A DNA stretch of 50,956 bases, from IMG/VR virus record IMGVR_UViG_3300045973_001484, positions 1 through 50,956 of that record; one strand, written 5' to 3'. Made by a program: the position numbers and the translations under genes. How positions within the stretch are numbered: position 1 is the stretch's first letter; every line of letters begins with the position of its first letter. Positions 22,937 to 50,956 of this stretch are shown here, one piece after another. The notes under the pieces are model-generated. The model did not search any database and was not told where the DNA came from. It saw only the letters and a program-made list of their open reading frames with translations. The stretch is from a virus.

Positions 22937-25221
22937 GCTGGTGGAATCGCTTCATAAGCAAGCCCCGCCCCGACGTCAACCCCGGGTCCGTCTCGATACC
23001 CGAAGATACGATGAACGGCGTTATCAGCAAGCTCTCAGGCTTCTACAACTTCGCCGCCTCGCCTTTCGACCTGGAAGCGCTGCGCGTCCTGGAACTGCTC
23101 GGCATGCTCAACCCGGATATCTCTCAGGCGCTGTCCATCTGGGTCAACCTGGGCAACACCGGACATGAGGTAGAGGTAGAGGGGCGCAATCCCCAGGCGG
23201 TGCTTGACCGGATAAACAGGCTGGCCGCCACGGTCTACCAGATCGGCGGTGGTATTGATGGTCTGATCAACGGCTTTTTGCGCCAAATCCCGCTGATGGG
23301 TGCGCTCTCCGCCGAATGGGTAGTTGCTGACAACATTAATGACGGCCTGATTGAATGCGTGACTGTGCCGGTCAAGCGCATCAGATGGCAGCGGGTGAAC
23401 GGCGTCTTCACACCCTTCCAGTATTCGGGCTTTATTGTCCAGGGCGGCAACGGCTACATCCAGCTCAACCCGATCACCTATAGCTATATGCCGTTGATGA
23501 CAAATGACGGCAGCCCGTATGCGATCCCCCCGTTCCTCGCTGCCCTGAAAAATATCGAAGTCCAGCTGGATGCAACCGACAACCTCAGTTCAATCATCCG
23601 GAAAATGGGATTGCTCGGTTTTATCGACGTCAAGCTGGAGATCCCTGACCAGAAGCCAGGAGAAAATGACGATGCCTACCGGAATCGTCTGACCCAGCGG
23701 TTGAAAGCATATGCGGCTGCGTACAAAGGCAGTATCTCCAAGGGGGTCAGTGTCCATTACAACGATCAGGAGATCAAACACAACGCGACGAACGCCGGTG
23801 CCGCTGCAGGAGCAAAATCAGTCTGGGAGATGAACGAAGAGCAGATTTTCTCTGCCATCGACATTCCACCCAGCATGTGCGGCCGCTCGTACAGCACAAC
23901 CGAGACATATGCCGAGGTGGATTTTGAACGGTTGGGCACCAAGCTGGTCAATGGTCGCCGCATGATCAAACGCTTCCTTGAGAAAGGCTACACCCTGGAT
24001 CTGTTGTTACGCGGTATCGACGCCCAGATCAGCATTTCATTCAACGAACACAACGCCTTCAAACAGAAGGAAAAGGAAGAAGCGGAAGGCCAGCGGATCA
24101 AGAACATATTGAGCAAGCGGGATGCCGGGATGATCTCCGATGACGAAGCCGCTCAGGAACTGGGTTACGAGAAAGCCACCGGCCGCCGGCCGGGTGATAC
24201 ACCGCCTGATGGTTTCTTTGGGTCTGCCTCAGCAACTGCAGTGCGCTTCTCATTCAATAGCCGCACCGGCCGTTACGAGCATGTACCCGAGGTGATCCGG
24301 CTGGAGCAGCCGGCCGATGACCGCGCCGATCAGAATTACATAGCGGTGCTGCAGGCGGTGCTGGAAGGGCCGGAACAAGCGGCTATCAAGGCGGCTCTGG
24401 CTGCTGCTGAAGCGTTTGAGGCCGGCAGGTCTTTAAAGCGTATTGCTGCCGAGAGATTTGCGAGAGACGTCTACACCGCCTTTGCCGACTCTCTCCGCTC
24501 CGGGATTGCCAAAACCTCGATCATGAAGGTGTGCAAGCAGTTCACTGGAGCAGAGTGGCAGCGCCGGCGCTACGAGGATAAAAACCATCTGTTGTCTGTA
24601 CAGCGCAGATTTGAGGGCGAGGATAAAGTCATAAACATCGGCCTCGTTGATCAGAATGCCATTCGCTACATAACCAACGTGGAGACCTTCTACTTCGGGC
24701 GCGGCAACTATCTGGCCAATAACGAGGCTACCGGCAAACAGTTCATCTCCTGGCTGCAGGATGAGTACATCACCAAGGGTCTCAGTATCCGTGATGACGC
24801 TACATGGAGCGAGTTCAAAACCACATTTGCCGACCTGGTCAAAGAGACCAGCTTCCAGAAGATCGAACAGATCGTCTCCACTACGATGGGCCGCATCCAG
24901 AACATGGGACAGCTCCTGAGCCATTATGAAGCGGGGGTTAAACGTTACACCATCGTAGGTCCCTCAAGCTATCCGGCCTGCAAGCATTGCCTCAACATGT
25001 TGGGCAGGAAGTTCGAGGTCAAGGCCGCCGTGTCCAGGCTGGCTAAAAATCTGGAAAAAGGTTTTGAGGACCCCAGCGACTTCCCGCCGTTTCTGACGAC
25101 AAAGTACACGGCTGATCAATTGGACAAGAAAGCAATCAGCGACTCCGACCTCCAGGAGGCCGGATTTGACCTTGCACCATTTCACCCGAAATGCCGCCAT
25201 CGGACAGCGGCGGTGGGCTAA
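22933..25221 (+). CDS. Portal (Gp29/DUF935) fused to minor head protein (Gp30/GpF)
   Basis: The ATG at 22933 overlaps the terminase stop, giving 762 residues. Residues 1 to about 440 are the DUF935 portal with the IRWQRVNGVFTPFQ and PPSMCGRSYSTTE segments. Residues about 480-762 are the phage Mu F-like head morphogenesis domain, including TTMGRIQNMGQ and a C-terminal Cys/His cluster (CKHCLNM, FHPKCRHR). In Mu these are separate genes. The fusion joins the DNA entry ring to the protein that links it to the capsid. No stop or frameshift sign at the joint. Confidence 0.82.
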   Translation: MSWWNRFISKPRPDVNPGSVSIPEDTMNGVISKLSGFYNFAASPFDLEALRVLELLGMLNPDISQALSIWVNLGNTGHEVEVEGRNPQAVLDRINRLAATVYQIGGGIDGLINGFLRQIPLMGALSAEWVVADNINDGLIECVTVPVKRIRWQRVNGVFTPFQYSGFIVQGGNGYIQLNPITYSYMPLMTNDGSPYAIPPFLAALKNIEVQLDATDNLSSIIRKMGLLGFIDVKLEIPDQKPGENDDAYRNRLTQRLKAYAAAYKGSISKGVSVHYNDQEIKHNATNAGAAAGAKSVWEMNEEQIFSAIDIPPSMCGRSYSTTETYAEVDFERLGTKLVNGRRMIKRFLEKGYTLDLLLRGIDAQISISFNEHNAFKQKEKEEAEGQRIKNILSKRDAGMISDDEAAQELGYEKATGRRPGDTPPDGFFGSASATAVRFSFNSRTGRYEHVPEVIRLEQPADDRADQNYIAVLQAVLEGPEQAAIKAALAAAEAFEAGRSLKRIAAERFARDVYTAFADSLRSGIAKTSIMKVCKQFTGAEWQRRRYEDKNHLLSVQRRFEGEDKVINIGLVDQNAIRYITNVETFYFGRGNYLANNEATGKQFISWLQDEYITKGLSIRDDATWSEFKTTFADLVKETSFQKIEQIVSTTMGRIQNMGQLLSHYEAGVKRYTIVGPSSYPACKHCLNMLGRKFEVKAAVSRLAKNLEKGFEDPSDFPPFLTTKYTADQLDKKAISDSDLQEAGFDLAPFHPKCRHRTAAVG

Positions 25222-25307: not shown

Positions 25308-26429
25308 GTGGGAGCAAAAGAGCGAAAACAGTTTGCAGTAATCAAAGAAGGGTTTGCCCGGGCTACTTTCGGCGGTGTCTTTTCCGGTTGCCCAACCGAA
25401 GCGGTAGGCGGGTCGATTAGTTTTGCCGCGCTGGATGACAATGGCGGACTGAATAAAGATGAATTCTTTGCCACCATGGCCCGCATCCTGTCCAAGGCGA
25501 TTACCCCCTACCGTAAATTCGACTTTACCAAGGGCGATGTACTGAAAAAATCGGTCGGTATATTCGAGGGTCTGACCCTCTATGCCAACCACAATCCCAA
25601 CGTCAATGACTGGAAGGGTTTGGTCCAAAATTGTGTGTGGGATGACAAAAACAATCCGGCCGGGATCAACGCCATGATTGTCGTTGATAAGACCATCGAT
25701 CCCAAGTTGGCGCGCGGACTGGAGATCAAGGCCTTGCGCTCGCTTTCGGTTACCATCTGGTTCAACTACGAGAAGAGTCACCCTGATCTGCCCGGTTTCT
25801 ATGACCGCCTGGGAGAAACCGTCGACGGTGAGGTTGTACGATTCATTGTCACCGAGATAACCAATGCCGGAGAAGTTTCCGTCGTCTGGGAAGGTGAAGA
25901 CCCTTTTGCAAAAACATTCGGCTTCGACTCCGCTCAGCCCCCGGGAGACGGTCCCCTGAGCGGAACCGAAGGGCAACACCTAAACCAAGGAGGAAAAGAC
26001 ATGAAACTTACTGCAGCAACAGTGGCGCTGCTCGGCCTGGCCGCCGGCGCTGAACCAACCGAAGCCGAGTTGGAAACTGCCATCACCGGCAAAATTTCCA
26101 GTCTCGAAACACAGATCGCCTCACTCAAGCCAGACGCCGCAATTGGCGTACAGACCCTCAAGGAAACCCGCGAGCGCGCAGTTACTCTCTACAAGGTTGC
26201 CAAGGGAGAGAAGGTTGTCGAGACTTTTATCAGCGGAGTTATTGAAAAGGCGGACCTGACCACGGCACGGGCTTTCTGTTCCGAGTATCAGACTGCGGTT
26301 GATGAGAGTATCCCCCTGGCGTGCCCCAAGTGCGGCGAGAAACTCACCCGCCGATCATCGCAGGCTGAAGGCGACGGTCATACAACTGCTGGCGCCGGCA
26401 AGCGCGCTGACGATTACAAGGTCGCATGA
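25308..26429 (+). CDS. Prohead protease with in-frame scaffold (Mu GpI type)
   Basis: 373 residues from a GTG with CAGGAGG upstream. The N-terminal half resembles phage prohead proteases (LTLYANHNPNVNDW, ARGLEIKALRSLSV, with a candidate catalytic Ser in the latter). A linker follows, then a helical scaffold ending in CPKCGEKL. The protease processes scaffold and capsid during maturation. An internal start makes the scaffold alone (see 26001-26429), as with genes I and Z of Mu. Confidence 0.78.
   Translation: MGAKERKQFAVIKEGFARATFGGVFSGCPTEAVGGSISFAALDDNGGLNKDEFFATMARILSKAITPYRKFDFTKGDVLKKSVGIFEGLTLYANHNPNVNDWKGLVQNCVWDDKNNPAGINAMIVVDKTIDPKLARGLEIKALRSLSVTIWFNYEKSHPDLPGFYDRLGETVDGEVVRFIVTEITNAGEVSVVWEGEDPFAKTFGFDSAQPPGDGPLSGTEGQHLNQGGKDMKLTAATVALLGLAAGAEPTEAELETAITGKISSLETQIASLKPDAAIGVQTLKETRERAVTLYKVAKGEKVVETFISGVIEKADLTTARAFCSEYQTAVDESIPLACPKCGEKLTRRSSQAEGDGHTTAGAGKRADDYKVA
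26001..26429 (+). CDS. Nested scaffold protein (Mu GpZ type), 142 aa
   Basis: A strong internal site, AAGGAGG 7 nt before an ATG in the frame of the protease gene, predicts a separate scaffold protein made of the C-terminal domain (KLTAATVALLGLAAGAEPTE at the start, coiled coil, then CxxC). Higher synthesis of the scaffold than of the full-length protease is needed for prohead assembly. Confidence 0.65.
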   Translation: MKLTAATVALLGLAAGAEPTEAELETAITGKISSLETQIASLKPDAAIGVQTLKETRERAVTLYKVAKGEKVVETFISGVIEKADLTTARAFCSEYQTAVDESIPLACPKCGEKLTRRSSQAEGDGHTTAGAGKRADDYKVA

Positions 26430-30053: not shown

Positions 30054-31736
30054 ATGCGTGACGTTTTTGAGTTTTTGGTAGACGGCACTTCCGGTATCGC
30101 GCCGGGCGGAGTCGAAGGGGCCTGCATCGTAACCGGTGTCTGCTCGGTGGGCGTGGTTGGCCGTGGTTATCTGCTCGGCAAATCCTCCAATCTGGAAGCA
30201 CTGCTCGGCGTCGGGCCGCTGGTTGATCGTCTGCGCGATGTTTTCGCCACCGGCGGTCAGGCTCCCCTGGTGATCGCTGTTCCGGTCACCGGAGTGGCTG
30301 GCGGCTATATCACTCCGGTCGAGCATGCCGGTACCGGCCCCGTGGCAGCCGCCAGCGGAGTGGCGACCGGTAATGCCGATGCGGTTATCTCTATTGTCGT
30401 GGGTGGCGCGCTGGGTGTGGCTACCTACAAACTGTCCGTTGATGGTGGCACTACCTGGGGCGTAACCGGCGCAACCCCGGCAAACGGTCAGATTGCCGTT
30501 GCCGCCACCGGAGCCACAATCACCCTGGCAGCCGGTGTCCACGTTGCCGCCGATACCTATAGCGCCCTGGTGCGCGCACCAATCGGCCCGGTTACCAAAA
30601 TCGGCACCGGCCCGAATATCACCGTGGCTGGCACGATCATGGCCGCTGCCGATGTTCAGCTGCAGATAATGTCAACCGGTGCCCGCAACGTGGGCACGTA
30701 TCAAATATCTCTTGACGGCGGTGATTCCTGGGGCGGCGTGCGCACAATTCCGGTTGATGGCTTGATCGCGGTCGGCACGTCCGGAGCTACCATCACATTT
30801 CCGGCACAAAATGCGGTTGCCGGGGACACCTATACATTCCAGACCCTCGCCCCGGTACCGACGGTGTCGGCGGTTCTTGATGCCCTGGAGATCCCGCTCG
30901 GACTGTATGACGTGGAGTTTGTCTATGTTGTGGGACCGTCCGATTCCAGCGACTGGACCGCCATGGGCGTGCAGGCGGATACGTTATGGAATCTCCATCG
31001 CCCGACATTTTTTATCGCTGAGACTCGCCTGCCGTTTGCCAATGAAACAATTGACGAATGGACAGCCGCCCTTGTCCTGGAGCGCCAGGGCTTCGCGCAC
31101 CGCTTCGTAGCTGTGGTTGCCGCATACGGTGAGATATCGGATGTGACCGGTAAACGCATTACCCGCAATGCCGCCGGTCTGGCTGCGGGGCGGCTGCTGG
31201 CAATTCCGGTCATGCGCGCCCTGGGGCGTGTCCGCGACGGCAATATTGCCCCGCTGTCTCTGCCGAGTCTCTATACCGAGGCGCATCAGGCCACGCTGGA
31301 AACCGCCGGTTATATCACCGCCCGCCGCTATGCCGGGCTCTCCGGATGCTATTGGGGCGATGAAAAAACCATGGCCGATGTCACCAGCGATTACCAGTAT
31401 CTGACCGTGCTGCGGGTAGTTTTCAAGGCCGTGCGCAAAGCGAGGATTGCCGCCCTTAAATCGATGTATGACGAAGCGGGAGACCCGACATTGGGCGAAG
31501 GTGCCGCCGGGTTGTCGTATCTGAAGGTCAATATCGAAAACGCCGTCGATACGATGGTAAATGCCGTGCCGTCCGAATTGGCCGCCCGACAGATCACCAT
31601 CCCGTCAGGGCAAGATATCGTCAACAACGGCGTGGCGGTGGAAATGAAGCTGATCGGCATTCCGATTATCCGCACCATCAAGCTGTTCGCCAGTTATGTC
31701 TACGCCGGCGGCGCGTTTGATCCGAGGCTGAAGTAA
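30054..31736 (+). CDS. Contractile tail sheath protein (Mu GpL type) with inserted repeats
   Basis: 560 residues, longer than Mu L. The C-terminal 290 residues are the conserved sheath core, with RLLAIPVMRALGRV and the closing RTIKLFASYVYAGGAF. Between about residues 93 and 270 lie two related beta-rich units of about 85 residues, each with a YxxSxDGGxxWG motif and a TGATIT or SGATIT strand. They probably form surface domains on the tail. AGGAAC precedes the ATG. Confidence 0.82.
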   Translation: MRDVFEFLVDGTSGIAPGGVEGACIVTGVCSVGVVGRGYLLGKSSNLEALLGVGPLVDRLRDVFATGGQAPLVIAVPVTGVAGGYITPVEHAGTGPVAAASGVATGNADAVISIVVGGALGVATYKLSVDGGTTWGVTGATPANGQIAVAATGATITLAAGVHVAADTYSALVRAPIGPVTKIGTGPNITVAGTIMAAADVQLQIMSTGARNVGTYQISLDGGDSWGGVRTIPVDGLIAVGTSGATITFPAQNAVAGDTYTFQTLAPVPTVSAVLDALEIPLGLYDVEFVYVVGPSDSSDWTAMGVQADTLWNLHRPTFFIAETRLPFANETIDEWTAALVLERQGFAHRFVAVVAAYGEISDVTGKRITRNAAGLAAGRLLAIPVMRALGRVRDGNIAPLSLPSLYTEAHQATLETAGYITARRYAGLSGCYWGDEKTMADVTSDYQYLTVLRVVFKAVRKARIAALKSMYDEAGDPTLGEGAAGLSYLKVNIENAVDTMVNAVPSELAARQITIPSGQDIVNNGVAVEMKLIGIPIIRTIKLFASYVYAGGAFDPRLK

Positions 31737-37051: not shown

Positions 37052-37489
37052 ATGGCCGATCTGTTCGGACAGGACATAAAGATCGATAGTGCCGGTCAGG
37101 CGTTGGTGGCTGCAAACGGTGAACTGCTGTTGACCGAAGGGGCAGAAACCGGCGTCCAGGATATCCGCCTCTGCCTGGGGACTCCCCTGGGTGAATTGTT
37201 CTACGATATCGAGTCCGGCAGCCTGGTACATGAGTGGTACCAGGAGGAAAATACCCAGGGTAATCGTTCGGCATTTGAAGCTGAAATCGAGCAACGCATC
37301 GAAGCGGATCCGCGCGTGGTTCTGGGTACGGTAACCTGCAGGGTGAGCTCGTGGGATGAAAAAGGCATCACGGCCCGCGCATCATGGGAGTTTATCGGTG
37401 AAGACCATCCGTTTAACCTGGTCATCAGTTACGACTCAACAAATAAGGAGATGGTGATACGCGATGTCAATCCAAGATCTAGTCTCTAA
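37052..37489 (+). CDS. Baseplate wedge protein (GpW/gp25 type, Mu Gp46)
   Basis: 145 residues with LFGQDIKIDSAGQALVAANG at the start and the EQRIEADPRVV segment typical of the gp25-like wedge. Overlaps the J-like gene by 26 bp. Links baseplate and sheath and starts contraction. Confidence 0.77.
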   Translation: MADLFGQDIKIDSAGQALVAANGELLLTEGAETGVQDIRLCLGTPLGELFYDIESGSLVHEWYQEENTQGNRSAFEAEIEQRIEADPRVVLGTVTCRVSSWDEKGITARASWEFIGEDHPFNLVISYDSTNKEMVIRDVNPRSSL

Positions 37490-38627
37490 AAACCTCGACA
37501 CCATCCGTCAAGAGATGTTTGGCCGGTTGTCGGCCAAACAGGAGGAATACGTTGCGGCGGGGTGGCTGCCGATTCGCCTGAATCTCAACAAGGGCATTGT
37601 CCGAGGCTTGATTGAGTTGTGGTGTTGGGGATTATGGCAGCTGTACCAGTTTCTTGCCGTTATCCTCAGCCAGGCTGCAGCTGACACCGCCACCGGGCTG
37701 TGGCTGGATCTCCACTGCAAGCAGGTTGGTGTCAACCGCAAGCCGGCTACCAAGGCTACCGGCATCATTTATTTCACCCGGGCTGTTACCGGGGGCAACG
37801 TGCCGATTCCCGCCGGTCGGGTGGTCAAAACCAAGCCCGATGGCCTTGGGCGGGTTTACCGCTTTGTTACCTCTCAGGCTGTTGTTTTGGCCGCTGGTTC
37901 ACTGGAGGTGGCCTGCCCGGTTGAGGCCGAGGATTACGGCCAGGGCGCCAATGCTACCGCAGGTCAGATCAGCGAGATATCTACGGTCATTTCCGGCGTC
38001 GATGCGGTGGAGAATCGCGTTGGCTGGTTGACCAGCGAGGGGAGCGACGCCGAGGGTGATGACAGCCTGCGGTTGCGTTATCAACTGGCCTGGAAAAAGC
38101 TCAACGGCTGTACAAAGTACGCCTATGAGGCATGGGCACGGGAAGTAACCGGGGTCGTAAGCGCTACGGTCCTTGATCAGCATCCTCGTGGAGAGGGTAC
38201 GGTTGATGTGCTGATTGTTGGCCCGGCAGGCATACCGACTCAGCAGTTGCTTGACGCTGTCAGTGTGAACATCCAGGGGACCGGCAACGGCGATGAAAAA
38301 TACCCGATCAATGATGATGTGGAGATCCGTGGCCCGGTGCCGGTGAACGTGTCATTTACTGCGGAACTGGTACTGACCGGCGGCGATCCCGCTTCTACTC
38401 TGATTACCGCTGAAAACAGAGTCCGGGCGTTGTTTTCAATTCTGCCGCTGATCAGCGATATTTCCCCTCTGAATATCGGCGCCGATGCCACTCTTGACCG
38501 TTTGAAATGGGCCGCCATGCTGCCCAATGTCAAGCGCATCACCACTGAGTTTGTTGATATTCCGGTACCTGCAGACGGCCTGGCTGTTCTGGGTTCTTTG
38601 ATTCTCTCATACGCTTGGGCGGAGTAA
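37464..38627 (+). CDS. Baseplate J-like protein (Mu Gp47)
   Basis: 387 residues with the J-family features: ADTATGLWLDLHCKQVGV, PIPAGRVVKTK, and GSDAEGDDSLRLRYQLAWK near the middle. Wedge component that holds the fibres. It starts within the upstream wedge gene. Confidence 0.85.
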   Translation: MSIQDLVSKNLDTIRQEMFGRLSAKQEEYVAAGWLPIRLNLNKGIVRGLIELWCWGLWQLYQFLAVILSQAAADTATGLWLDLHCKQVGVNRKPATKATGIIYFTRAVTGGNVPIPAGRVVKTKPDGLGRVYRFVTSQAVVLAAGSLEVACPVEAEDYGQGANATAGQISEISTVISGVDAVENRVGWLTSEGSDAEGDDSLRLRYQLAWKKLNGCTKYAYEAWAREVTGVVSATVLDQHPRGEGTVDVLIVGPAGIPTQQLLDAVSVNIQGTGNGDEKYPINDDVEIRGPVPVNVSFTAELVLTGGDPASTLITAENRVRALFSILPLISDISPLNIGADATLDRLKWAAMLPNVKRITTEFVDIPVPADGLAVLGSLILSYAWAE

Positions 38628-38629
38628 CT

Positions 38630-41600
38630 ATGAATTTGTTTTGGTCATACTTCCGGGATTCGCTGAGATTCCCCCTGATTCGTAATCTTGGCCCGTTGGC
38701 GATGCTCGTTGAAGGGGCGGCCGTAACTCTTGATGAGGTTCGGGAGCTGATTATAGCGTTACGTGATCAGACCCAGCCATTGCGCTGTAATGATGCGATG
38801 CTGCTCCGGTTTGCCGCGAGCAGAGGTATCACCAGGTCTCCCAATGAGCCGGAGCTGTACTGGCTGGAGCGGGTGCGCTTTGCATATGACTGGTGGTGTA
38901 AAGGCGGGCGGTCTTCATTGCTGTCTAAATCGCTGGTGGATGGATTTAATGTCGCATCAGCAAAGATCATAAATATGCGGCGCGAAGATCCGACACAATG
39001 GGCAAGCTTCCGCTTGGAAATTGACGGTGCCAGTGGTGATCTGCTCACCCGCCTGAATCAGATAGACTGGGCAGTGAATGAGGTAAAGCCAGCCCGGTCA
39101 AAGCTTAAGCATACGTCATTATTTGTCAGCAAGTCAGATATCCTGCCGTTTTGGGCAGGTGTCGTTTTGTTTGGTGAAACAGTTACACATTTTTCCGGGG
39201 AGGATTTTATGTATGTAAATTTTAAAGGGGCATTCGTGCCGGGAGATTATAATGTCAACGACTGTTTCCGACACAATGGCGCAATCTGGCGTGCAAAGGC
39301 TGATAACAGCGTAGCTCCTCCGGTAGATTTTGTTGACAACGAGCATTGGGAATTGCTGTTACCGCCCGGGCAAAAGGGGGATAAGGGGGATACTGGAAAT
39401 ATTGGCGCTCAAGGTGCTTCCGGCCCCCCCGGTGCTCCCGGCAACCCTTATAAAACATATGGCACATTGGTTCTGGCGACTGCTGATCTTGCTAATATAC
39501 CAGATGATCGATTGGTCTGGATTAACAACGACACGGTTAATACGGGGTATTACTCTAAGTTAGGGGGAGTTTTGGTTAAGTCTGACTCTGATCGAGTTGC
39601 ATTGGTAGAGGGCAGAGCAACAACACTGGAATCAAGAGCAACCATTATTGAAAACGGCAAAGCTCCAAAATCATACGGTAAAAACCTTTTTAACATTAAC
39701 GATGCAGACGTTGCAGTTGGTTATTATCTTGCCATTGCTACCGGTGCTCTGGTGCCTACTTCTGATTTTGCTACAACCGGCTACATCCCTGTCGTTGCAG
39801 GAACTACCTACTACTTATCGGTCAAATACTACATTGTTTGGTACGATATTAATAAAACCAGAATATCTGGATTTGATATTAGAGCAAGTAGCAACACCCA
39901 GATTGCCCCAGCTGGTGCGTGCTTTATGCGCTGTACTATTTACCCCTACCTTACTGGTACCTTGTGGACCAAGTTCCAGGTAGAGGTGAGTGCTGTCGGA
40001 ACTACCTGGGAAGCATATTTAGATCAAAGCATGTTGGCATCAAAAGCTATTGCTATGGCAACCAGGGATAATGAGCTGGACGCAAAAAAAGCCCAGATTG
40101 CTAGGGGTAAAAACCTCGTCAACATAAATGCTCCCGATGTGCTGCTTAACTCATATATCAATGCGGCAAACGGCAACATTACTTTTGAAAATAACAATTA
40201 TGCTTTAACCGGGTATATCCCCATAACTGGAGGTGCCACATATACCTTCTCCTCACAGCACAGAATGTGCTGGTTCACTGCTGACAAAATATACATCAGC
40301 GGGGTTACTATCGGTGGGGGAAATACGTTGGTGGCTCCCGCAAACGCTGTTTACGCAAGGGTGTCTGTAACTCCATGGTCTACGGGGACACTCTGGACGA
40401 AGCTGCAGGTTGAGGAAGGATCTGCTGCTACGGCATGGGAAGCATATACTGACCAAAGTATGCTGCCGGGTAGGGCTGCGGCTCTTGAGTTGAGAGCAAC
40501 CGCTCTGGAAACATCTAAAGCCAATATTATTCCAGGGAAAAATAAGTTCAACATTAATGACCCGGACATAGCACTCAACCAATATGTCTCGGAGGCCAAT
40601 GGCAATCTTGGTGGTTTCTCCGGATACGCTACAACCGGCTACATCCCTGTCGTTGCAGGAACTACCTACGTGGTTTCGACAAAAAAATATTTGGCTTGGT
40701 ACAACGCCTCTAAAATATTCATATCCGGATCACCCGCAACTGATGCAAACAGGGTACAAACTGCTCCTGCCGGTGCCGCCTATCTACGATGCTCGGTGTA
40801 TCCGTATAACACAGGTACCCTATGGACAGAGTTCCAAGTGGAGATCGGGACAGCCTCAACCGCGTTTGAGGCCTATTATACTGGAGTGGATTTGTCTACT
40901 GCTATCAAGGGTACGCTGTCTGCCGACGCGATACCTGACGGATTAATTACCATACCTAAAGCCAACTTTTTTAGTGTCGGGAAAAACAAATTCAACATCA
41001 ACGACAGCGGCAACGTAACCGCTAAATACATTAATAGTACCACCGGCAATGCAGACCCAAATGACAGCTATAATGCAACGGGGTATATCCCGGTTACGGG
41101 TGGGGCCACATACACTCTATCCACAAAGTCGTGGCTTGCATGGTATACCGCCGCTCATGTGTATATTTCCGGTTCTTCCTCGTCCGACACCAATCCAACT
41201 CAATCCGCACCTGCAAACGCGGCATATTTGCGCACATCAGTACTGATAACGGGGGGAACACAGGATTGGCTGCAACTACAGGTGGAATTAGGTACAAATA
41301 AAACTGCATGGGAATCATATGGATATCAATTGTCTGATCCTACAGGTGGATTACCCATCAGAACCGCGGTCGTCAGTCCAACTTCCAATCTCGCAATAGC
41401 CCCGAAATTATATACTGCGGTTGGAAAAGAAATAGCAGTGTACCAGGAGACTGTCGCCGGTATCTGGCCCTCATTACAGGGCCGGATAGGAATCACTCTG
41501 ACCGGATCAAAAATGACCGGACCATCGACAAAGTTAACTCCTGCATCAACAGCAGGCAGTCCACTGGCAATCTCGGTTACGTTGGCAAACGAGAGTATGG

Positions 41601-42619
41601 ACATAATCGAAACGAAATCATCTTCCCTGATCATTGCCAGTGAAGTGACAACTACTGCAGTAGTTGTGCAGAATATCGGTGACAGTATCACCTTCAGATC
41701 AACATTCACTGATGCAATAAAAGCAGGCGCATCTGCAACCGGACTTACTTTTACCGGGATCAGAGACTCGTCAACTGCTTTGGTTCAGGTGCCGTGCGAA
41801 GGCTATGGTGGCTGGACATTGGCAATGCACAGCACGGTTGATTCGTCTGGTTTATTTTCCCCGTTCATGCACCCGGTTACAGCAGGGTATCGGTATTTTG
41901 GGAAGACCTCATACTGGATTGCCGCAAATGGCGCATCTCCTGCGTATGCGTATGCAAATTTTAACAGAGTTAAAACCTTGTTCAATCCTGCAACCGGACT
42001 GCTCACAGCCCCTGCAGTGAATGACATTATGGGCAACGGGGCGGGTGCATATGTTGTGTGGAACGGATCATCATGGGTAACAATATTATCAGCTGCTTTC
42101 GGCGGCTTTGAATTGAGCTATGCAAAATACCGTGCAACGTGGGGGATCGCACGCCCTAATATCGTGCATGTATTGCTGGGAACAAACGACTTTTACGGTA
42201 AGCCTCCCGCAGGATTTCCAGCCGTGTATGCTACGTTCAAATCACAATATGATGCACTGATTGCCAGCATCCATGCTGACAGCCCATCCTGTAAAATAAT
42301 CATTGGTATACCTCCATCCTCTGGTCGGCAGGGTGACTTTGGTATATATGCCTCCGAATTATGCAAGCGGGATTACTTCCTGTTGGCGCAATCTCTCATC
42401 GCTGATTACAGCAATAGAGAGGGCGAATTACTTTATCTGGCTGACTATCATTCTATTTTGGACCGTGAGTTTGCATGGGGCAACGCTTCAGAACCGCCAT
42501 TTACCGGGTACACCGGGAGTAATGCTGACGGATTGTATAAGGCTGATCTCGTTCATCCTTTGGATGGGGCGGTTCAGATGGCAAATTTGTACATGGGGAT
42601 TATTCAGGCATTAAGATAA
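38630..42619 (+). CDS. Chimeric baseplate-tail fibre with SGNH hydrolase, 1,329 aa
   Basis: Residues 1-195 are a Gp48/tail-protein-I-like baseplate attachment domain. A carbohydrate-binding-like WRAKADN segment (about 200-240) follows, then Gly-x-x collagen-like triplets (about 247-271), a coiled stretch, and four beta repeats of about 115 residues starting near 350, 493, 636 and 784 (each opens GKN.xNIN and ends WEAY-like). The C-terminus (about 1010-1329) is an SGNH/GDSL hydrolase with Ser1019 in NIGDS, Asn1186 in GTND, Asp1306 and His1309 in DLVHP. It probably deacetylates surface glycans. ATG at 38630 has GGAG upstream. Confidence 0.83.
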   Translation: MNLFWSYFRDSLRFPLIRNLGPLAMLVEGAAVTLDEVRELIIALRDQTQPLRCNDAMLLRFAASRGITRSPNEPELYWLERVRFAYDWWCKGGRSSLLSKSLVDGFNVASAKIINMRREDPTQWASFRLEIDGASGDLLTRLNQIDWAVNEVKPARSKLKHTSLFVSKSDILPFWAGVVLFGETVTHFSGEDFMYVNFKGAFVPGDYNVNDCFRHNGAIWRAKADNSVAPPVDFVDNEHWELLLPPGQKGDKGDTGNIGAQGASGPPGAPGNPYKTYGTLVLATADLANIPDDRLVWINNDTVNTGYYSKLGGVLVKSDSDRVALVEGRATTLESRATIIENGKAPKSYGKNLFNINDADVAVGYYLAIATGALVPTSDFATTGYIPVVAGTTYYLSVKYYIVWYDINKTRISGFDIRASSNTQIAPAGACFMRCTIYPYLTGTLWTKFQVEVSAVGTTWEAYLDQSMLASKAIAMATRDNELDAKKAQIARGKNLVNINAPDVLLNSYINAANGNITFENNNYALTGYIPITGGATYTFSSQHRMCWFTADKIYISGVTIGGGNTLVAPANAVYARVSVTPWSTGTLWTKLQVEEGSAATAWEAYTDQSMLPGRAAALELRATALETSKANIIPGKNKFNINDPDIALNQYVSEANGNLGGFSGYATTGYIPVVAGTTYVVSTKKYLAWYNASKIFISGSPATDANRVQTAPAGAAYLRCSVYPYNTGTLWTEFQVEIGTASTAFEAYYTGVDLSTAIKGTLSADAIPDGLITIPKANFFSVGKNKFNINDSGNVTAKYINSTTGNADPNDSYNATGYIPVTGGATYTLSTKSWLAWYTAAHVYISGSSSSDTNPTQSAPANAAYLRTSVLITGGTQDWLQLQVELGTNKTAWESYGYQLSDPTGGLPIRTAVVSPTSNLAIAPKLYTAVGKEIAVYQETVAGIWPSLQGRIGITLTGSKMTGPSTKLTPASTAGSPLAISVTLANESMDIIETKSSSLIIASEVTTTAVVVQNIGDSITFRSTFTDAIKAGASATGLTFTGIRDSSTALVQVPCEGYGGWTLAMHSTVDSSGLFSPFMHPVTAGYRYFGKTSYWIAANGASPAYAYANFNRVKTLFNPATGLLTAPAVNDIMGNGAGAYVVWNGSSWVTILSAAFGGFELSYAKYRATWGIARPNIVHVLLGTNDFYGKPPAGFPAVYATFKSQYDALIASIHADSPSCKIIIGIPPSSGRQGDFGIYASELCKRDYFLLAQSLIADYSNREGELLYLADYHSILDREFAWGNASEPPFTGYTGSNADGLYKADLVHPLDGAVQMANLYMGIIQALR
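39677..41322 (+). repeat. Four tandem coding repeats in the fibre
   Basis: Units begin at 39677, 40106, 40535 and 40979, with spacers of coiled-coil type between them. Units 1 to 3 are spaced exactly 429 bp and share stretches of near-identical DNA (for example around TTCCAGG and CTACATCCCTGTCGTTGCAG), a sign of recent duplication or gene conversion. Unit 4 is the most divergent. Variation in copy number could change host range. Confidence 0.75.
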
Positions 42620-42693
42620 ACGATAATAAGAGGCGGCGGACTATCTGCGGTTTGTGGTTTATTTAATATAGACAAATTATGGGAGCTGGCAAA

Positions 42694-43467
42694 ATGCCTG
42701 ACTTTAGAGTTCGATATACTGACGCTGGGTTAGCAAAAATGAACGCCTGTGAAGCGGCCGGACAATCACTTAAACTGACCCACATTGCGGTAGGCGACGC
42801 CAACGGTGCGTACTATCCGTTGGAAAATATCCCTCTGCAGACTGAGTTGGTAAACGAGGTTTATCGTGCGGCGATCAATCGTTTGTATGTTGACCTCACC
42901 GATCCTACTCAAATCGTCGGCGAAGCACCAATTTTGCCAGGTGCCGGCCCATTCACTATTCGTGAGGGTGGTGCTTTTGATGTTGACGGTACTTTGGTAT
43001 TTGTCTGGCTAATGCCTATCACAGACGTGCCTGATGTCGCTGACAACAGTGACAAGAGCATCAACATTAGGTTCGTTCGGAAGGTTAGTAACGTCAATAA
43101 CATTACATTGATCACCGATGCTCAAACGGTAATGTCAACACAAGAACATGCCGATTCTCAAGGCGTTGGTTGGAACTCAGGCCATGCGCGTTATATTGCC
43201 ATCAGCGGACCGGTGTTGACGAGTGATCGCATTATCATAGTTGATGCCAGTAGTGGCGATATTCAGTTGAATATGTTGCCGGCCGCATCTCCGGCAGCTA
43301 GGTTGATCAGAATCAAGAAAACTGCTCTGGATCAGAGCGCACATAATGTCATTTTGGTGCCTATGCCGGATGATACTGTGGAAGGGATGATAGAATATAC
43401 GTTTAACGGCCCTGGGGAATGGCATGATTATCTGCCAAATGGTGTGAATAACTGGGAACAATTCTAG
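42694..43467 (+). CDS. Tail-collar fibre protein (P2 GpH-like N-terminal domain)
   Basis: 257 residues. The first 150 match the phage tail-collar fibre domain (FRVRYTDAGLAKMNACEAAG, LTHIAVGDANG, REGGAFD). The C-terminal part is beta-rich. It attaches to the baseplate and may carry or connect a receptor-binding tip. GGGAG at 8 nt supports the ATG at 42694. Confidence 0.72.
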   Translation: MPDFRVRYTDAGLAKMNACEAAGQSLKLTHIAVGDANGAYYPLENIPLQTELVNEVYRAAINRLYVDLTDPTQIVGEAPILPGAGPFTIREGGAFDVDGTLVFVWLMPITDVPDVADNSDKSINIRFVRKVSNVNNITLITDAQTVMSTQEHADSQGVGWNSGHARYIAISGPVLTSDRIIIVDASSGDIQLNMLPAASPAARLIRIKKTALDQSAHNVILVPMPDDTVEGMIEYTFNGPGEWHDYLPNGVNNWEQF

Positions 43468-43475
43468 GAGGATGT

Positions 43476-44102
43476 ATGCAACGAATTAATCTGTTTGTAT
43501 GTAATCTGTTTATGCTCGTTTCATTGGTGTTACCGCAGTCTCAGGCCATTGCGGGGACTGCAGTAACAAGTTTTTCAACAGTGAAAGCAACGACTATATC
43601 TGCAACTAATATTGATGCCAATAAGGTCCGGGCATTGGTAGATGTAGGTGAGGTCAAAGCTTTTTTCCGGGTGCAGTGCCCAACGGGATATTTGCCCTCT
43701 AACGGTTCATCATTTGCTCGTGCAACCTATCCTGATTTGTGGACAGTATGTCAATGGGCTGGATGTGGTGTTGGTAATGGATCAACCACATTCACAACTC
43801 CTGATCTGAGGGGAGAGTTTCTACGAGGTATCGACTCCAATAAAGGGACTGATCCGGACTACGCAACCCGATCAGTTGGTAGTGTGCAGGCTGATACAAT
43901 GCAGCTGATTACAGGGTCATTTGCAATCGATGATAGACAAACTTTGGCAACGGGGGCGTTTCAGATAGGTGACTGGGGAGACTACGGGTCCGGCAGTACT
44001 GGGTCTGGTAATGCAGTGACATTTGATTCATCGCGAGTAGCAAGGACCAGCACGGAAACCAGACCTCATAATGTTGCCGTATTATATTGCATCAGATATT
44101 AG
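43476..44102 (+). CDS. Collar-domain tail protein with export signal, 208 aa
   Basis: Residues 1-27 form a Sec-type signal peptide (basic start, hydrophobic core, SQAIAG cleavage region), and AGGAGG precedes the ATG. The mature part has a phage tail-collar domain (about 60-125: CPTGYLPSNGSSFARATYPDLW, FTTPDLRGEFLRGID) and a beta C-terminus ending TRPHNVAVLYCIRY. Export from the cytoplasm is unexpected for a virion part. The signal may have been captured with a host protein, or the product may work at the cell surface. Confidence 0.75.
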   Translation: MQRINLFVCNLFMLVSLVLPQSQAIAGTAVTSFSTVKATTISATNIDANKVRALVDVGEVKAFFRVQCPTGYLPSNGSSFARATYPDLWTVCQWAGCGVGNGSTTFTTPDLRGEFLRGIDSNKGTDPDYATRSVGSVQADTMQLITGSFAIDDRQTLATGAFQIGDWGDYGSGSTGSGNAVTFDSSRVARTSTETRPHNVAVLYCIRY

Positions 44103-45337: not shown

Positions 45338-45575
45338 TTTATCACCTCTCGAACTGCACACATTTCATCCGCAAATATAGACAGATATCATCAATAAAGC
45401 CAGTCAAAAAGCGTGCTTGAAGATAGTTGTAACAGGCAGAAATATAGACACATTTCGTTTCCCGTTATATTAATATGCAAGCATATTAAAGACATTTAAT
45501 TAAACTCTCGACAGCCGATATTTACCCATGGTATCGATTGAACAAGACGGACGATCAATCTCAAGGAGGTTAAAA
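45338..45575. promoter_or_regulatory. Divergent promoter region with palindrome and direct repeats
   Basis: Between the leftward transposase relative and the rightward primase lies a perfect 9+2+9 inverted repeat (TTAATATGC with GCATATTAA, 45470-45489) and two copies of AAATATAGACA (45373-45383 and 45440-45450). The palindrome is a strong operator candidate. It could be bound by the transposase relative itself or by an outside regulator. Confidence 0.55.
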
Positions 45576-48335
45576 ATGATGCGGACATGTTTAATGACAC
45601 TGGTGCTGGTTGTGACGACATGCCTGCCGGTCCTAGGTCAAGGGACCAAACCTGACGCAGTGGCGTTAGCGTTAAAATCTACACTTACGTTTGGAGTAAA
45701 CATGGGGAATATGACGAAAGTTGATGTTTGGCACCAAGCGGAGGAATGCTCCTCCGTAGAGACAACTGCAGACGACTATCAAGCTGCAGAACAAAATGGG
45801 TTGCAGATAACTTGCAACCAGAACGAGGAGGTGATCATTACAGAAAATATTGAAGTTTTGGCAACCAGCATTTCAAATGGTGATTTCATTTCAGCCATTT
45901 TCAATCAGCTACCTGAAGGATCGTCAGCAGCTGTATGTAGCAAGTCCGGCGATCCCGAAAATGGTAGTGGTTGGTATGCGCAGCCTGCAGGAACAATCGA
46001 ATTACCAGCAACAGACAACAACTACTCATCGTGTTCCAGCTTTAAGCAGCATGACGGCGAAGCATTCTCCGTCAGGAAGGATCAGTTTGGTGCCTTGCAT
46101 TGTCTGATGCTCGATGACCTCGGGACTAAAATTCCGTTTAACAAATTGGGTGGAATCAAGCTGTCGTGGCGGATCGAAACCAGCCCAGGCAACTATCAGG
46201 GTGGTCTCATTCTGGCTGAACCGATCACCGATTATGCCGAAGCGGAGCGTCTGACCAAGGCCATTAATTCTGCCGGATACAGTGACGCCGGATCAACAGG
46301 TCCGACCCGCTGGTTCCGGTTGCCGAATGCCATCAATGGCAAGGAGAAATACTGGGATGCTGACGGTAATCCATTCAAGTGCCGCCTTGACGAATGGCAT
46401 CCGGAGAGACGCTATACCAAAGATGAAATTGATGAAAAATTGGATCTTGTAATGGTACCGGTAGTATATTCTGTCGCTGAAGCAGTCACCATTGAACACG
46501 GTGGTAATGATGTTTTAACTCCGCGCGCTATCGAAAACCCTGTAATCACCACCCTCAAAAATCGAGGCCTGTGTAAAACACCGCTGGGCTCCGGGAAGTT
46601 TGACATTTCCTGTCCCTGGCGCAATGAACACACTGACGGTGTCGATAGTGGTACCGCATTTTTTGAACCGGATGATATTTACCCAACCGGTGGTTTCAAA
46701 TGCCTTCACGCCCATTGCTCTGACCGGCACATCAAAGATCTGCTTGAGTTTTTGGGTATCTCCAACAGCGAAGCACGTCATAAACCGGTGATTCGCATCG
46801 TTCCGGGCGAAATTCACCGGGTGGTCGATGCTGCTGAACGCCAACTGGCTCAACTCGGCAAGCTGTATCAGTCAGGCGGACTGATTGTTACCGTCACAAC
46901 TGATCCTGTGTCCGGAGATCCTTCTGTACTACCACTCGGTATTTCCTCACTGACCCGACAGTTGTCGGTTGCAGCAACCTGGGAGAAGTTCGATGCACGT
47001 CTTGGCGGGTTTGTACGTTGCGATCCTCCAGCACGACACGTGTCGATTCTGAATGATGCAAAGACATTCCAGCATCTGCCACCACTGGCAGGAGTAACAA
47101 GACAGCCATATTTCCGGGATTCCGATGGTGAACTCGTGACTGAACCGGGATATGACGACAAGTCAAAAATGTTTGGTGTCTTCAATCCACGAGAATTTAT
47201 CATGCCGGGGCTTTCTCTCGAAAATGCCCGTAATGCTCTTGCTTTACTGGAAGAGTTGCTTACGGAGTTCCATTTTGTATCCACCACCGACAAAGCTGCT
47301 GCACTCGCGGCAATATTTACTGCTGTTGTCAGAACGTCCTTACCCCATGCCCCTGCCTTCCACATCAAAGCGCCAGTTTTTGGTAGCGGAAAGTCTTATC
47401 TGTGTGAGGTAATCGGTGCTTTCGCCGGTCCAGGGCTAAACTCAAAAGTCAGCTATCCGGCGACTTCCGAGGAAGCAACCAAAACTATCTTGTCATTACT
47501 TTTAACATGTCCAAGCGTAATTGAATTCGACGACATGTCGTCTGACTGGACACCCTTCGGTACCATTATGCGGATGTTAACAGCTGAACAAATCACTGAC
47601 CGTATCCTTGGCGCTTCAAAAACAGCCACCGTTTCGACACGCACCCTCTTTCTCGGCTCCGGTAACAATGTTGGGCCGGTACGCGATTTACTCCGGCGTG
47701 TACTGACCATTCAAATTGATCCGCGATGTGCCACGCCTGCAACAATAACATATCGGGGGAATCCCCTTGAAATAGTCCGTAAGGAACGCGGTAAGTATGT
47801 CGCTGCGGTATTGACCATAATCCTCGCCTGGCGGGCTTGTGGCTCACCAATGACGGCGTGTGACAGCATCGTCACCTATAGCGGGGCCTGGTCAAATTAC
47901 TGCCGTCAACCGCTGATATGGCTCGGGTATCCCGATCCGGCGTCTGCCCTGATTGAACAGGTTAAGCATGATCCGGATGCAGAACCTCTTGCGCACTTGA
48001 TGTCGGAATGGTTCCGGGCATTCGGATCAATCGCAACCACCGTCCGTAAAGCCGTTGAGACAGCTATCGGTAAAGGATTTATGGAAGGAGATTCTGAACT
48101 CCATGATGCAATTCGCGAGTTTCCCGTGGAAGAACGAGGGGTTATCAATCGCACTAAACTCGGCTGGATACTCAAGAAAAACGCTAACCGCATAATCGAC
48201 AACATGGAATTCCAGCGGGATGGGGCGGATGGCCGAACGGCCTGGAAAGTAGTCAAGATTCAGCAAAAAAAACCACCTGCTTCGCCTGATTTACCGGAGA
48301 GACCGGAATTTGTCAGTCAGGAAGAACCGTTTTAA
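45576..48335 (+). CDS. RepB-type primase/helicase of the integrative element, 919 aa
   Basis: A RepB/AEP primase domain spans about residues 85-260 (MLDDLGTK with Asp180/Asp181, ETSPGNYQGGL, RWFRLPNAINGK). A CHC2-like zinc module follows (ISCPWRNEHTDG, FKCLHAHCSD), and then an ATPase with GSGKS (603-607) and EFDDM (Asp652). It should prime and unwind DNA for replication of the excised element. The best SD (AAGGAGG) leads to a start whose first 23 residues look like a Sec signal, odd for a primase. An in-frame ATG at 45702 with GGAG would give a normal N-terminus of 877 residues. Confidence 0.82.
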   Translation: MMRTCLMTLVLVVTTCLPVLGQGTKPDAVALALKSTLTFGVNMGNMTKVDVWHQAEECSSVETTADDYQAAEQNGLQITCNQNEEVIITENIEVLATSISNGDFISAIFNQLPEGSSAAVCSKSGDPENGSGWYAQPAGTIELPATDNNYSSCSSFKQHDGEAFSVRKDQFGALHCLMLDDLGTKIPFNKLGGIKLSWRIETSPGNYQGGLILAEPITDYAEAERLTKAINSAGYSDAGSTGPTRWFRLPNAINGKEKYWDADGNPFKCRLDEWHPERRYTKDEIDEKLDLVMVPVVYSVAEAVTIEHGGNDVLTPRAIENPVITTLKNRGLCKTPLGSGKFDISCPWRNEHTDGVDSGTAFFEPDDIYPTGGFKCLHAHCSDRHIKDLLEFLGISNSEARHKPVIRIVPGEIHRVVDAAERQLAQLGKLYQSGGLIVTVTTDPVSGDPSVLPLGISSLTRQLSVAATWEKFDARLGGFVRCDPPARHVSILNDAKTFQHLPPLAGVTRQPYFRDSDGELVTEPGYDDKSKMFGVFNPREFIMPGLSLENARNALALLEELLTEFHFVSTTDKAAALAAIFTAVVRTSLPHAPAFHIKAPVFGSGKSYLCEVIGAFAGPGLNSKVSYPATSEEATKTILSLLLTCPSVIEFDDMSSDWTPFGTIMRMLTAEQITDRILGASKTATVSTRTLFLGSGNNVGPVRDLLRRVLTIQIDPRCATPATITYRGNPLEIVRKERGKYVAAVLTIILAWRACGSPMTACDSIVTYSGAWSNYCRQPLIWLGYPDPASALIEQVKHDPDAEPLAHLMSEWFRAFGSIATTVRKAVETAIGKGFMEGDSELHDAIREFPVEERGVINRTKLGWILKKNANRIIDNMEFQRDGADGRTAWKVVKIQQKKPPASPDLPERPEFVSQEEPF

Positions 48336-48346
48336 ACAATACGCAA

Positions 48347-48378
48347 CTCCTCCGGTACACAATACCGTGCCGGAGGGG
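48347..48378 (+). promoter_or_regulatory. Hairpin leader, copy 1
   Basis: A 12-bp stem with G-T pairs (48347-48358 with 48367-48378) lies just after the primase gene. It is followed by GGTACAAA and ATTAAAAAGGAA before the ATG at 48410. The same layout precedes the paralogue at 48887. Confidence 0.55.
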
Positions 48379-48409
48379 TACAAACTTACACATTAAAAAG
48401 GAACTTTAC

Positions 48410-48721
48410 ATGCAAATCGATAATCAAAATACAACAACCATTCTCTGCAATGGCCGCCGGGTTGATACGGCTTTTCTCGACCTGATTCATGAGGTCGTCC
48501 AAGACAGGATTACAACAATACCTTATGACGTACCATACACATTGAAGCAAATATGCGGCAAAGATTTCTGGGAACAGCTTGAAGACAGTGAAGTCGAACG
48601 TGCTGGCTACTGCATGTCCCATCTTGTGGCAACGAATGCAGTGGATATGGAGGAGGTTGGTAAAGATATCCACAATGCCAAGTTGTACCGACGCATCAAT
48701 CGTTCGGACACTGTGGATTGA
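48410..48721 (+). CDS. Conserved hypothetical protein, paralogue 1, 103 aa
   Basis: Contains YTLKQICGKDFWEQLEDSE then AGYCMSHLV, a pattern I associate with small conserved proteins of phages and integrative elements; no activity is known. AAGGAAC precedes the ATG. A diverged, shorter paralogue lies 166 bp downstream. A terminator-like hairpin follows. Confidence 0.65.
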   Translation: MQIDNQNTTTILCNGRRVDTAFLDLIHEVVQDRITTIPYDVPYTLKQICGKDFWEQLEDSEVERAGYCMSHLVATNAVDMEEVGKDIHNAKLYRRINRSDTVD

Positions 48722-48731
48722 TCCCAAAGAG

Positions 48732-48759
48732 GTCGGGATATCGGCGGTGGTATCCCGAC
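48732..48759 (+). terminator. Terminator-like hairpin
   Basis: GTCGGGATA pairs perfectly with TATCCCGAC around 10 nt and is followed by TTTAT. Ends the transcript of paralogue 1. Confidence 0.6.
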
Positions 48760-48826
48760 TTTATCCGATGTGTGGCCGCGAAAAGTCAGCCTTGACGATG
48801 ATCCGGTTTAGGCCCACGCAACACTT

Positions 48827-48855
48827 CCACCGGGTGCCTCTAAAATGCCCGGTGG
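48827..48855 (+). promoter_or_regulatory. Hairpin leader, copy 2
   Basis: CCACCGGG pairs perfectly with CCCGGTGG around 13 nt, followed by TACAAA and ATTAAAGGAA before the ATG at 48887, mirroring copy 1. The stems differ in sequence but keep pairing, as expected for a selected structure. Confidence 0.55.
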
Positions 48856-48886
48856 TACAAATCAACTTATTAAAGGAATTCTACCC

Positions 48887-49159
48887 ATGACTAATAATAC
48901 ACAAAGATTTTCCACTTCTTTCTCCCATGGCTGCCGTATCGATTCGAAGGTTCTCGAACTACTACATGAAACAATCCATGAAACTCTTCCTTTATTACAG
49001 CCATATGTATCGTACACATTGAAACAAATATGCGGCAAAGACTTCTGGAAACAGCTTGGTGACTACAAGATTTGCTTGTCTGTGGATTTGGAAGATGCAG
49101 GCAAAGACGACCACAATACCGATCTCTATCGGCGCAATAATATTTCGACACGGTATTAA
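48887..49159 (+). CDS. Conserved hypothetical protein, paralogue 2, 90 aa
   Basis: Shares YTLKQICGKDFW and the LYRRxN ending with paralogue 1 but lacks about 12 residues, including the AGYCMSHLV segment. The start at 48887 has AAAGGAA upstream; a longer start at 48845 would lie in the hairpin. It arose by tandem duplication with its leader and has since diverged. It may be losing function. Confidence 0.55.
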   Translation: MTNNTQRFSTSFSHGCRIDSKVLELLHETIHETLPLLQPYVSYTLKQICGKDFWKQLGDYKICLSVDLEDAGKDDHNTDLYRRNNISTRY

Positions 49160-49741
49160 TAGATCACCATTCAAGTGGGGCTGCCGTCTACCTCGGCGGT
49201 GGCCCTGCAGACTTTTTCCAGCCCGGTGCCGCCGAAAGGTGGAGAAGCCGGAGAAGGGGGGGATGCACCGCCTTTACCACCTTTTCCGCCTTTTCCCGGC
49301 CACGGTCAGCGAAAATGTCCGTTTGCCGTGCGTTCTTCCGGAGGCCCATGCCCCGCATCGGTTTGCGCCGAACGGCCCCCCTGCGCTGCCGTGCGACCTC
49401 CAAAACGTGCCGGGGTGCAGCAACTGCCGGTGGTTATGGCCGAACTGATCCCGACCCGGCGTTTTGCCGTCTCTGGGGCAACGGGGCTGCCAGTCGGCAC
49501 GCTTCCGGACTGGCAACAGCTGGCGGCGGCGCAGGTCACGGTAACTGAAAAAACTACATGTCTGACAACAGGCGCTTTGGCTGGAAAAACCCTTCAGTAA
49601 CTCATTTGGCCCGACTATGGACCGACAGATTTCTAACACTACTGAGAAGCCGTTGCCACGTAAGGCAATGATCAAATTGAACAAAAAACAACATGTCCGT
49701 TGACCCAAAAAACAGGTCTCACGGAACAGGAGATAAAAACT
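49160..49741. other. Gene-poor GC-rich stretch
   Basis: Frames are open on both strands because of the high GC, but none has a good SD or a recognisable domain, and composition is Pro/Gly/Arg-rich. Bases 49228-49325 are related to 44420-44555. Probably the remains of a decayed gene upstream of the integrase. Confidence 0.4.
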
Positions 49742-50956
49742 ATGAGTCAAACAATAGATAACAAGCAGTTCCGGTTTAGCCAAAAATTAATCGACAGCTT
49801 ACCGATACACGACAGAAACTCCGCCTCTGCCATGGCCGAGTATAGCGACGTCGAGGTAATCGGCCTAAAGGTCTCAGTCAGTAAGTCTGGCCACAAGTCA
49901 TATTCCCACCGTTACCGGTTTAACGGGCAAAAGAAAACGATGAAGTTAGGAGAGCATCCGAGTCTAACCGTGATACAAGCTCGGCAACTGGTGAATGACA
50001 ACAAGAATTTGCTTGCACAAGACCTTGATCCGGCTGGAGAGAAGAACAAACGTCGGAGAGTACCTACCATGCTGGAGTTCGCAGTACAGACATATTTACC
50101 GCAAGCACGGTTACACAAGCGGTCATGGAAAGACGACGAATCTAAAATACGGCGTGATATCGGTAAAATGATCGGTGGTATACCAATTACCGAATTGACC
50201 ACTGCCGATATCATGCAGCTTCACACAACAGTTGCCCACCGAACGTCCATGGGGACCGCTAACAGATATCTCGCTCTATGCTCTGGTATCCTTTCGCTTG
50301 CCATGAGGTGCGACATTGTTACAAAAAATGTAGCCAGAAGTGTGAAAAAATTTAGAGAAGCAGAACCCCGAACCCGATTTTTATCCTCAGACGAACTCGG
50401 CATGTTCATAACCGCCCTCGATAATTCAGACCGGATAACGGCCTGTGCCCTGAAATGCCTCTTGCTGACCGGCCTGAGGAGAATGGAGCTGTTCAGCCTC
50501 CCATGGTCAGAGGTTGATGTTGAGGCTGGTACGGCACGGATCGTTTCAACAAAGGCGGGGAAGGCTCGAACAATAGCCTTCAACTCTCTCGCGCTTGAAT
50601 TGATCAAAAAGTTAAAGTCAGAAGCATCGCCGAGCTGCCCCTGGGTTTTTCCAGCCCGAAATGGCGGACATATTAAAGATGCCCGTAAGGCGCTCTGGAA
50701 GGCGATGAGGCAAGCAGATATAAAAGATCTCCATCAACATGACCTTCGAAGAAGTTTTGCCTCCCTTTTGGTTAACGCCAATGTTGATATTTACCAGATA
50801 AAAGATCTGCTTGGTCATTCATCGGTTGCTGTCACGCAGAAATCGTACGCTCATTTGCAGCAAAACACGCTTCGTACTGCCAGCGAAGTAATGGTAACAA
50901 CTCTACAGGATGCTCTGGGCAAAATGGTTGTTCAGCCCGAATTACTCGCAGCATAA
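49742..50956 (+). CDS. int: Tyrosine recombinase/integrase with DUF4102 arm-binding domain
   Basis: 404 residues from the ATG at 49742 (GGAG upstream). The N-terminal 95 residues are a DUF4102 arm-binding domain (MKLGEHPSLTVIQARQLV), then a SAM-like core-binding domain (about 100-210), then the catalytic domain with Arg246 (TGLRRMEL), a Lys in STKAGKA, His333/Arg336 (HDLRR), His359 (LLGHSS) and Tyr369 (KSYAHL). All catalytic residues are present. It should integrate and excise the outer element. The gene ends at the window edge, and its 3' end probably faces the attachment site. Confidence 0.93.
   Translation: MSQTIDNKQFRFSQKLIDSLPIHDRNSASAMAEYSDVEVIGLKVSVSKSGHKSYSHRYRFNGQKKTMKLGEHPSLTVIQARQLVNDNKNLLAQDLDPAGEKNKRRRVPTMLEFAVQTYLPQARLHKRSWKDDESKIRRDIGKMIGGIPITELTTADIMQLHTTVAHRTSMGTANRYLALCSGILSLAMRCDIVTKNVARSVKKFREAEPRTRFLSSDELGMFITALDNSDRITACALKCLLLTGLRRMELFSLPWSEVDVEAGTARIVSTKAGKARTIAFNSLALELIKKLKSEASPSCPWVFPARNGGHIKDARKALWKAMRQADIKDLHQHDLRRSFASLLVNANVDIYQIKDLLGHSSVAVTQKSYAHLQQNTLRTASEVMVTTLQDALGKMVVQPELLAA

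Follow-up and report, generated by a model that had tools for sequence, protein, structure and literature searches.

A 1,329-residue frame in a Mu-like prophage is probably two neighbouring late genes, a gp48-like baseplate protein and an SGNH tail fibre

Does one long frame among the tail genes of a Mu-like prophage encode a fibre built covalently into the baseplate, or do two neighbouring genes happen to be read there as one? The frame, at 38630–42619 on the plus strand, is uninterrupted over 1,329 aa, the length given in the preliminary description, and has no stop through the junction of its baseplate-like and fibre-like parts. It was read from the 50,956-base IMG/VR record IMGVR_UViG_3300045973_001484, the whole of which was analysed and is referred to here as the window. 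The window carries a Mu-like prophage, and the long frame lies within its tail region, in the order sheath, tape measure, baseplate proteins, gp46-like protein, J/gp47, long frame, collar-fibre gene and tail-collar gene. A gp47/J wedge gene (Baseplate_J, E=3e-51) at 37464–38627 is located directly upstream of the gp48-like part of the frame. Relatives of the J protein came from IMG/VR and from MAGs of Desulfuromonadaceae, Desulfobacteraceae and Deltaproteobacteria, and the host is therefore probably of the Desulfuromonadia type. The parts of the locus are as follows, with related loci given L numbers.

38630–39208, plus strand: gp48-like (Mu BW3 / Tail_P2_I) baseplate-wedge domain, codons 1–193; 45–53% identical to the most similar free-standing gp48 proteins
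39170–39218, plus strand: junction; frame 0 reads FGETVTHFSGEDFMYV and the +1 frame ...IFPGRILCM-stop, the gp48 C-terminal motif, with TAA at 39216–39218
39199–39203, plus strand: Shine-Dalgarno sequence GGAGG, 5 nt before ATG 39209
39209–42619, plus strand: proposed separate tail-fibre gene, 1,136 aa from M194, based on the Shine-Dalgarno sequence and ATG at the gp48 family end and on fibre homologues lacking gp48
39215–39364, plus strand: small domain before the collagen, residues 196–245; phrog_5073 tail fiber protein, E=5e-10, with copies in L037 and L102
39368–39448, plus strand: collagen-like stretch, residues 247–273, nine Gly-x-x triplets; Pfam Collagen below cut-off, E=5e-4
39449–39676, plus strand: neck domain; 51% identity to an esterase-type fibre (SASA domain) in L047, another genome of the same class
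39677–40033, plus strand: beta-repeat 1
39770–39811, plus strand: 42-bp run identical to 40628–40669 in repeat 3, a possible gene-conversion footprint
40106–40462, plus strand: beta-repeat 2
40535–40888, plus strand: beta-repeat 3
40979–41329, plus strand: beta-repeat 4
41342–42619, plus strand: linker and SGNH/GDSL hydrolase domain, residues 905–1329, from a Lipase_GDSL_2 match and catalytic blocks
42679–43467, plus strand: second fibre gene with a Phage_tail_fib N-terminal domain, the type found directly after gp48 in most relatives
43476–44102, plus strand: tail-collar-domain protein

Elsewhere in the window, the tail sheath (30054–31736) is 560 aa long against a profile of 376 positions, and by eye its residues ~80–260 resemble two inserted beta-repeats. 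At the right end, 45528–50956 holds a primase-like protein and a tyrosine integrase that appear to be part of another element. Inspection by eye also located a DNA-adenine-methylase-like ORF (WPGGKRRLAK...) just 3' of the fibres in L006, L025, L026, L046 and L047, with none seen at the corresponding place in the window, and a formylglycine-enzyme-like protein in the sister prophages L029 (4987–7698) and L028 (10412–11533). L029 also carries a reverse-transcriptase-like ORF, which together with the formylglycine-enzyme-like protein suggests, again by eye, a diversity-generating retroelement.

The N-terminal part of the frame is a wedge domain of the Mu gp48 / Tail_P2_I kind, as had been claimed, by its homology to sister gp48 proteins and its position 3' of the gp47/J gene. 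Residues 1–193 are 30–51% identical to their sisters in an alignment with ten of them, and 53% identical to the nearest genome match. Tail_P2_I was detected by Pfam in seven of the 11 alignment members and Phage_Mu_Gp48 in two; the window's own domain falls below Pfam detection and is assigned through its sisters. A search for a close copy of the window's gp48 found none. The gp48 of L007 contains a 25-aa insertion at residues ~38–62 holding a tandem VTFEGEP repeat.

Comparison with related loci bears directly on the question of one chain or two. Loci were found with J or gp48 queries and 37 were read, with one left out as incomplete at its start and a few of the remaining 36 being the same contig or near-identical. 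In all 36 of these, each with a complete gp48 reading, gp48 is a stand-alone protein of ~180–250 aa that ends at 178–251 aa, and the start of the following ORF lies anywhere from 11 nt upstream to 59 nt downstream of the gp48 stop. An in-frame fusion of gp48 to a fibre was present in none of the 36, and the long frame as a conserved fusion was rejected on this ground. In the window, frame 0 runs on past the family end and the +1 frame ends there. A control for this comparison is provided by the portal and MuF-like head protein, which form one 772-aa frame at 22903–25221; this frame came back near full length in seven matches from six relatives, and every relative that gave a match keeps the fusion. 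Because the portal–MuF fusion was recovered in this way, a real gp48–fibre fusion would be expected to show by the same comparison.

The sequence at the junction points in the same direction. Just before ATG 39209, frame 0 reads FGETVTHFSGEDF, and the +1 frame reads IFPGRILCM with its stop overlapping the ATG. The preliminary description mentions neither this motif nor the Shine-Dalgarno sequence and ATG beside it. The endings of gp48 in many relatives (ESVTVYPS*, SEVITVYPG* and TITTIFPGGEE*) are similar to the IFPG of the +1 frame, which is followed by a stop at most six codons on, and a short T run is located at the site. The pattern [VI][YF]P occurs out of frame in the window at 4.5e-4 per position, giving a chance of ~1e-3 of meeting it at the junction in either frame; this figure applies to a short match, IFPG, and to a pattern defined from the relatives once the motif had been noticed, before the chance rate was computed. 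GC3 drops along the locus, from 60–65% in the baseplate genes before gp48 to 55% in gp48 itself and 42–51% in the fibre. The preliminary description had named a frameshift separating its baseplate part from its fibre part as a refutation of its own proposal, and such a shift is largely what the gp48 motif and stop in the +1 frame indicate.

These observations tell against the earlier proposal that gp48 is the covalent anchor of the fibre. A genuine wedge–fibre fusion, made as one chain with the fibre built into the baseplate, would agree with a frame that stays open through the junction, and if true would tie the wedge to the fibre covalently in an unusual way. It is nonetheless improbable, given that no related locus with a complete gp48 reading has it and that an internal Shine-Dalgarno sequence and ATG sit at the junction together with the out-of-frame gp48 tail and stop. 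Stoichiometry in Mu adds to this. Mu has one gp48 (BW3) per wedge, and its trimeric gp49 fibre docks via gp48 residues 133–155 (PMC11915804); because of this combination of one gp48 per wedge with trimeric fibres, an obligate fusion would supply 18 wedge domains for six sites.

The ATG at 39209 is in-frame codon 194 (M194) of the long frame and falls at the window counterpart of the gp48 family end, about codons 187–193. Of the 225 internal ATGs that lie in frame in the window genes, 14 have a Shine-Dalgarno match of at least five bases under a lenient rule, and a few of these 14 are at or next to gene starts. The Shine-Dalgarno sequence alone is therefore weak evidence, and it is the position at the family end that counts. 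One internal start similar to that at codon 194 lies in the head-protease gene (25308–26429), where an in-frame AAGGAGG precedes ATG 26001; this start resembles the nested scaffold start of Mu.

A good internal Shine-Dalgarno sequence and ATG would also suit a gene with two products, in which each trimer consisted of a long chain fixed covalently in the wedge plus two shorter ones begun at M194. One anchored and two free chains would match one gp48 per wedge, and in-frame starts of this sort have the head-protease example as a parallel; internal starts are also in use elsewhere in phages, for instance in endolysins (PMC12203907). However, the arrangement is not conserved in the relatives, and the +1-frame motif looks more like the end of a gp48 that has been lost than like a fusion under selection; a dual-product gene is about as improbable as the genuine fusion. 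Alternatively, ribosomal frameshifting could operate at the short T run, where the +1 frame holds the gp48 tail and a stop, the shifted product being normal gp48 and the unshifted one the fusion. No relative needs a shift there, though, and no recognized slippery site was seen at the junction in an inspection for the slippery sequence itself; such frameshifting is the least probable of the explanations considered.

The reading preferred here, at a probability of roughly 0.8, is that the 1,329-aa frame represents two neighbouring late genes, gp48 and an SGNH tail fibre, brought into one frame by a small offset. Gene 1 would be gp48, the outer baseplate-wedge protein of ~195 aa. Gene 2 would be the tail fibre at 39209–42619, 1,136 aa. 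An offset near 39183–39200 would put the gp48 end, with its stop, out of frame, presumably by mutation or by sequencing error as judged from one sequence, and in either case the fibre would keep its own ribosome-binding site. Only for this reason would the two frames be read as one here. Against two genes stands the DNA as given, which encodes one uninterrupted chain, and searches for a homologue whose start coincides exactly with the M194 domain found none. Elsewhere the window has no obvious excess of broken genes and so does not look generally error-ridden.

With two genes preferred, the fibre can be considered on its own. The small domain at its start is common to phage fibres and to collagen-like and other structural proteins, where it lies beside collagen stretches. 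The Gly-x-x stalk of the preliminary description is present as the nine triplets listed above, and the four tandem repeats were also recovered, starting at 39677, 40106, 40535 and 40979 with spacings of 429, 429 and 444 bp, so that repeats 1–3 do lie 429 bp apart. The near-identical stretches ascribed to repeats 1–3 were overstated: the only long identical run is the 42 bp common to repeats 1 and 3, and repeat 2 has an identical run of at most 12 bp with either. The repeats are mutually 41–53% identical in protein and 55–62% in DNA, and by sequence the four are homologous but old. Repeats 1 and 3, with their 42-bp identity, could recombine and so change the copy number; no close copy of the window's fibre was found, and hence no copy-number change was observed.

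The repeats belong with the phage tail-fibre beta-repeats of the phrog_11541 kind, the profile of which matches across them at E=1.7e-32. A model of one repeat consists mostly of beta strands (pLDDT 74). A fold search with the repeat model gave 51 viral matches at E<=0.001, some of which carry annotations as fibre or SGNH/GDSL protein; the PDB gave none at that threshold.

The C-terminal domain gave a Lipase_GDSL_2 match at E=2.8e-7, its 31.6 bits lying just below the curated cut-off of 32.9. The complete SGNH triad that had been claimed was located, with blocks I, II, III and V all present as GDS (Ser1019), GG (1060–1061), GTND (Asn1186) and Asp1306-x-x-His1309. The catalytic Ser, Gly, Asn, Asp and His are invariant in three sequences, those of the window, L002 (43% identical to the window) and L046 (27%). 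A profile of the three sequences found SGNH-type esterases in the PDB weakly, with a best E of 7e-4, and a model of the SGNH domain from two sequences reached a pLDDT of 38. Of the glycan-deacetylating fibre on the baseplate that was first proposed, a fibre with an SGNH domain of the deacetylating kind stands by sequence, and the covalent join to the baseplate is not supported.

Scans with the whole protein or its SGNH part gave only one viral relative and none in genome contigs. The relative, L002 (IMGVR_UViG_2883794882_000006), has a siphophage-like tail region and a fibre with the same beta-repeats, which also shares the linker and the SGNH domain, at 40% identity over 425 aa; it differs from the window fibre in lacking the gp48 part, in its N-terminal region and in having three repeats rather than four. 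L046, from the class covered by a search centred on a Desulfuromonadaceae genome, has a 1,299-aa repeat-SGNH gene, likewise without gp48 and with another N-terminus. Similar beta-repeats, again without a gp48 part, occur in a Staphylococcus phage Sebago protein annotated as an SGNH/GDSL hydrolase, the N-terminal region of which is different from that of the window fibre; its SGNH part gave no match to that of the window by tblastn. In the sister prophage L006, an unrelated SGNH protein is encoded as a separate gene 3' of gp48.

Mu offers a close parallel, with the same order of gp47/J-type wedge, gp48 and fibre and a gp48-like domain of ~190 aa; unlike in Mu, the gp48 and fibre frames are joined in the window's DNA as given. 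By this analogy the window fibre would form a trimer of its own and dock on gp48 non-covalently, as in Mu. The collagen stretch would hold the three chains together, the beta repeats, four in number, would either bind a cell-surface glycan or act as spacers along it, and the SGNH head may remove O-acetyl groups, allowing the phage to dock.

Deacetylation of glycans by SGNH fibres is already established. Two SGNH-domain fibres of Klebsiella prophages are active esterases and G7C gp63.1 deacetylates lipopolysaccharide (PMC13123978), and the Possum gp66 fibre deacetylates the O-polysaccharide of Pectobacterium (PMC9569702). The window fibre is like these as an enzymatic SGNH fibre, a likeness drawn from their description and not from sequence, and by analogy it would deacetylate a surface polysaccharide.

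The two-gene reading corrects the gene call: annotation of the fibre should begin at 39209, and that of gp48 should record that its end is out of frame. The locus brings one more prophage, probably from Desulfuromonadia, into the group of phages with SGNH esterase fibres, and the same repeat-SGNH module is found behind different attachment regions.
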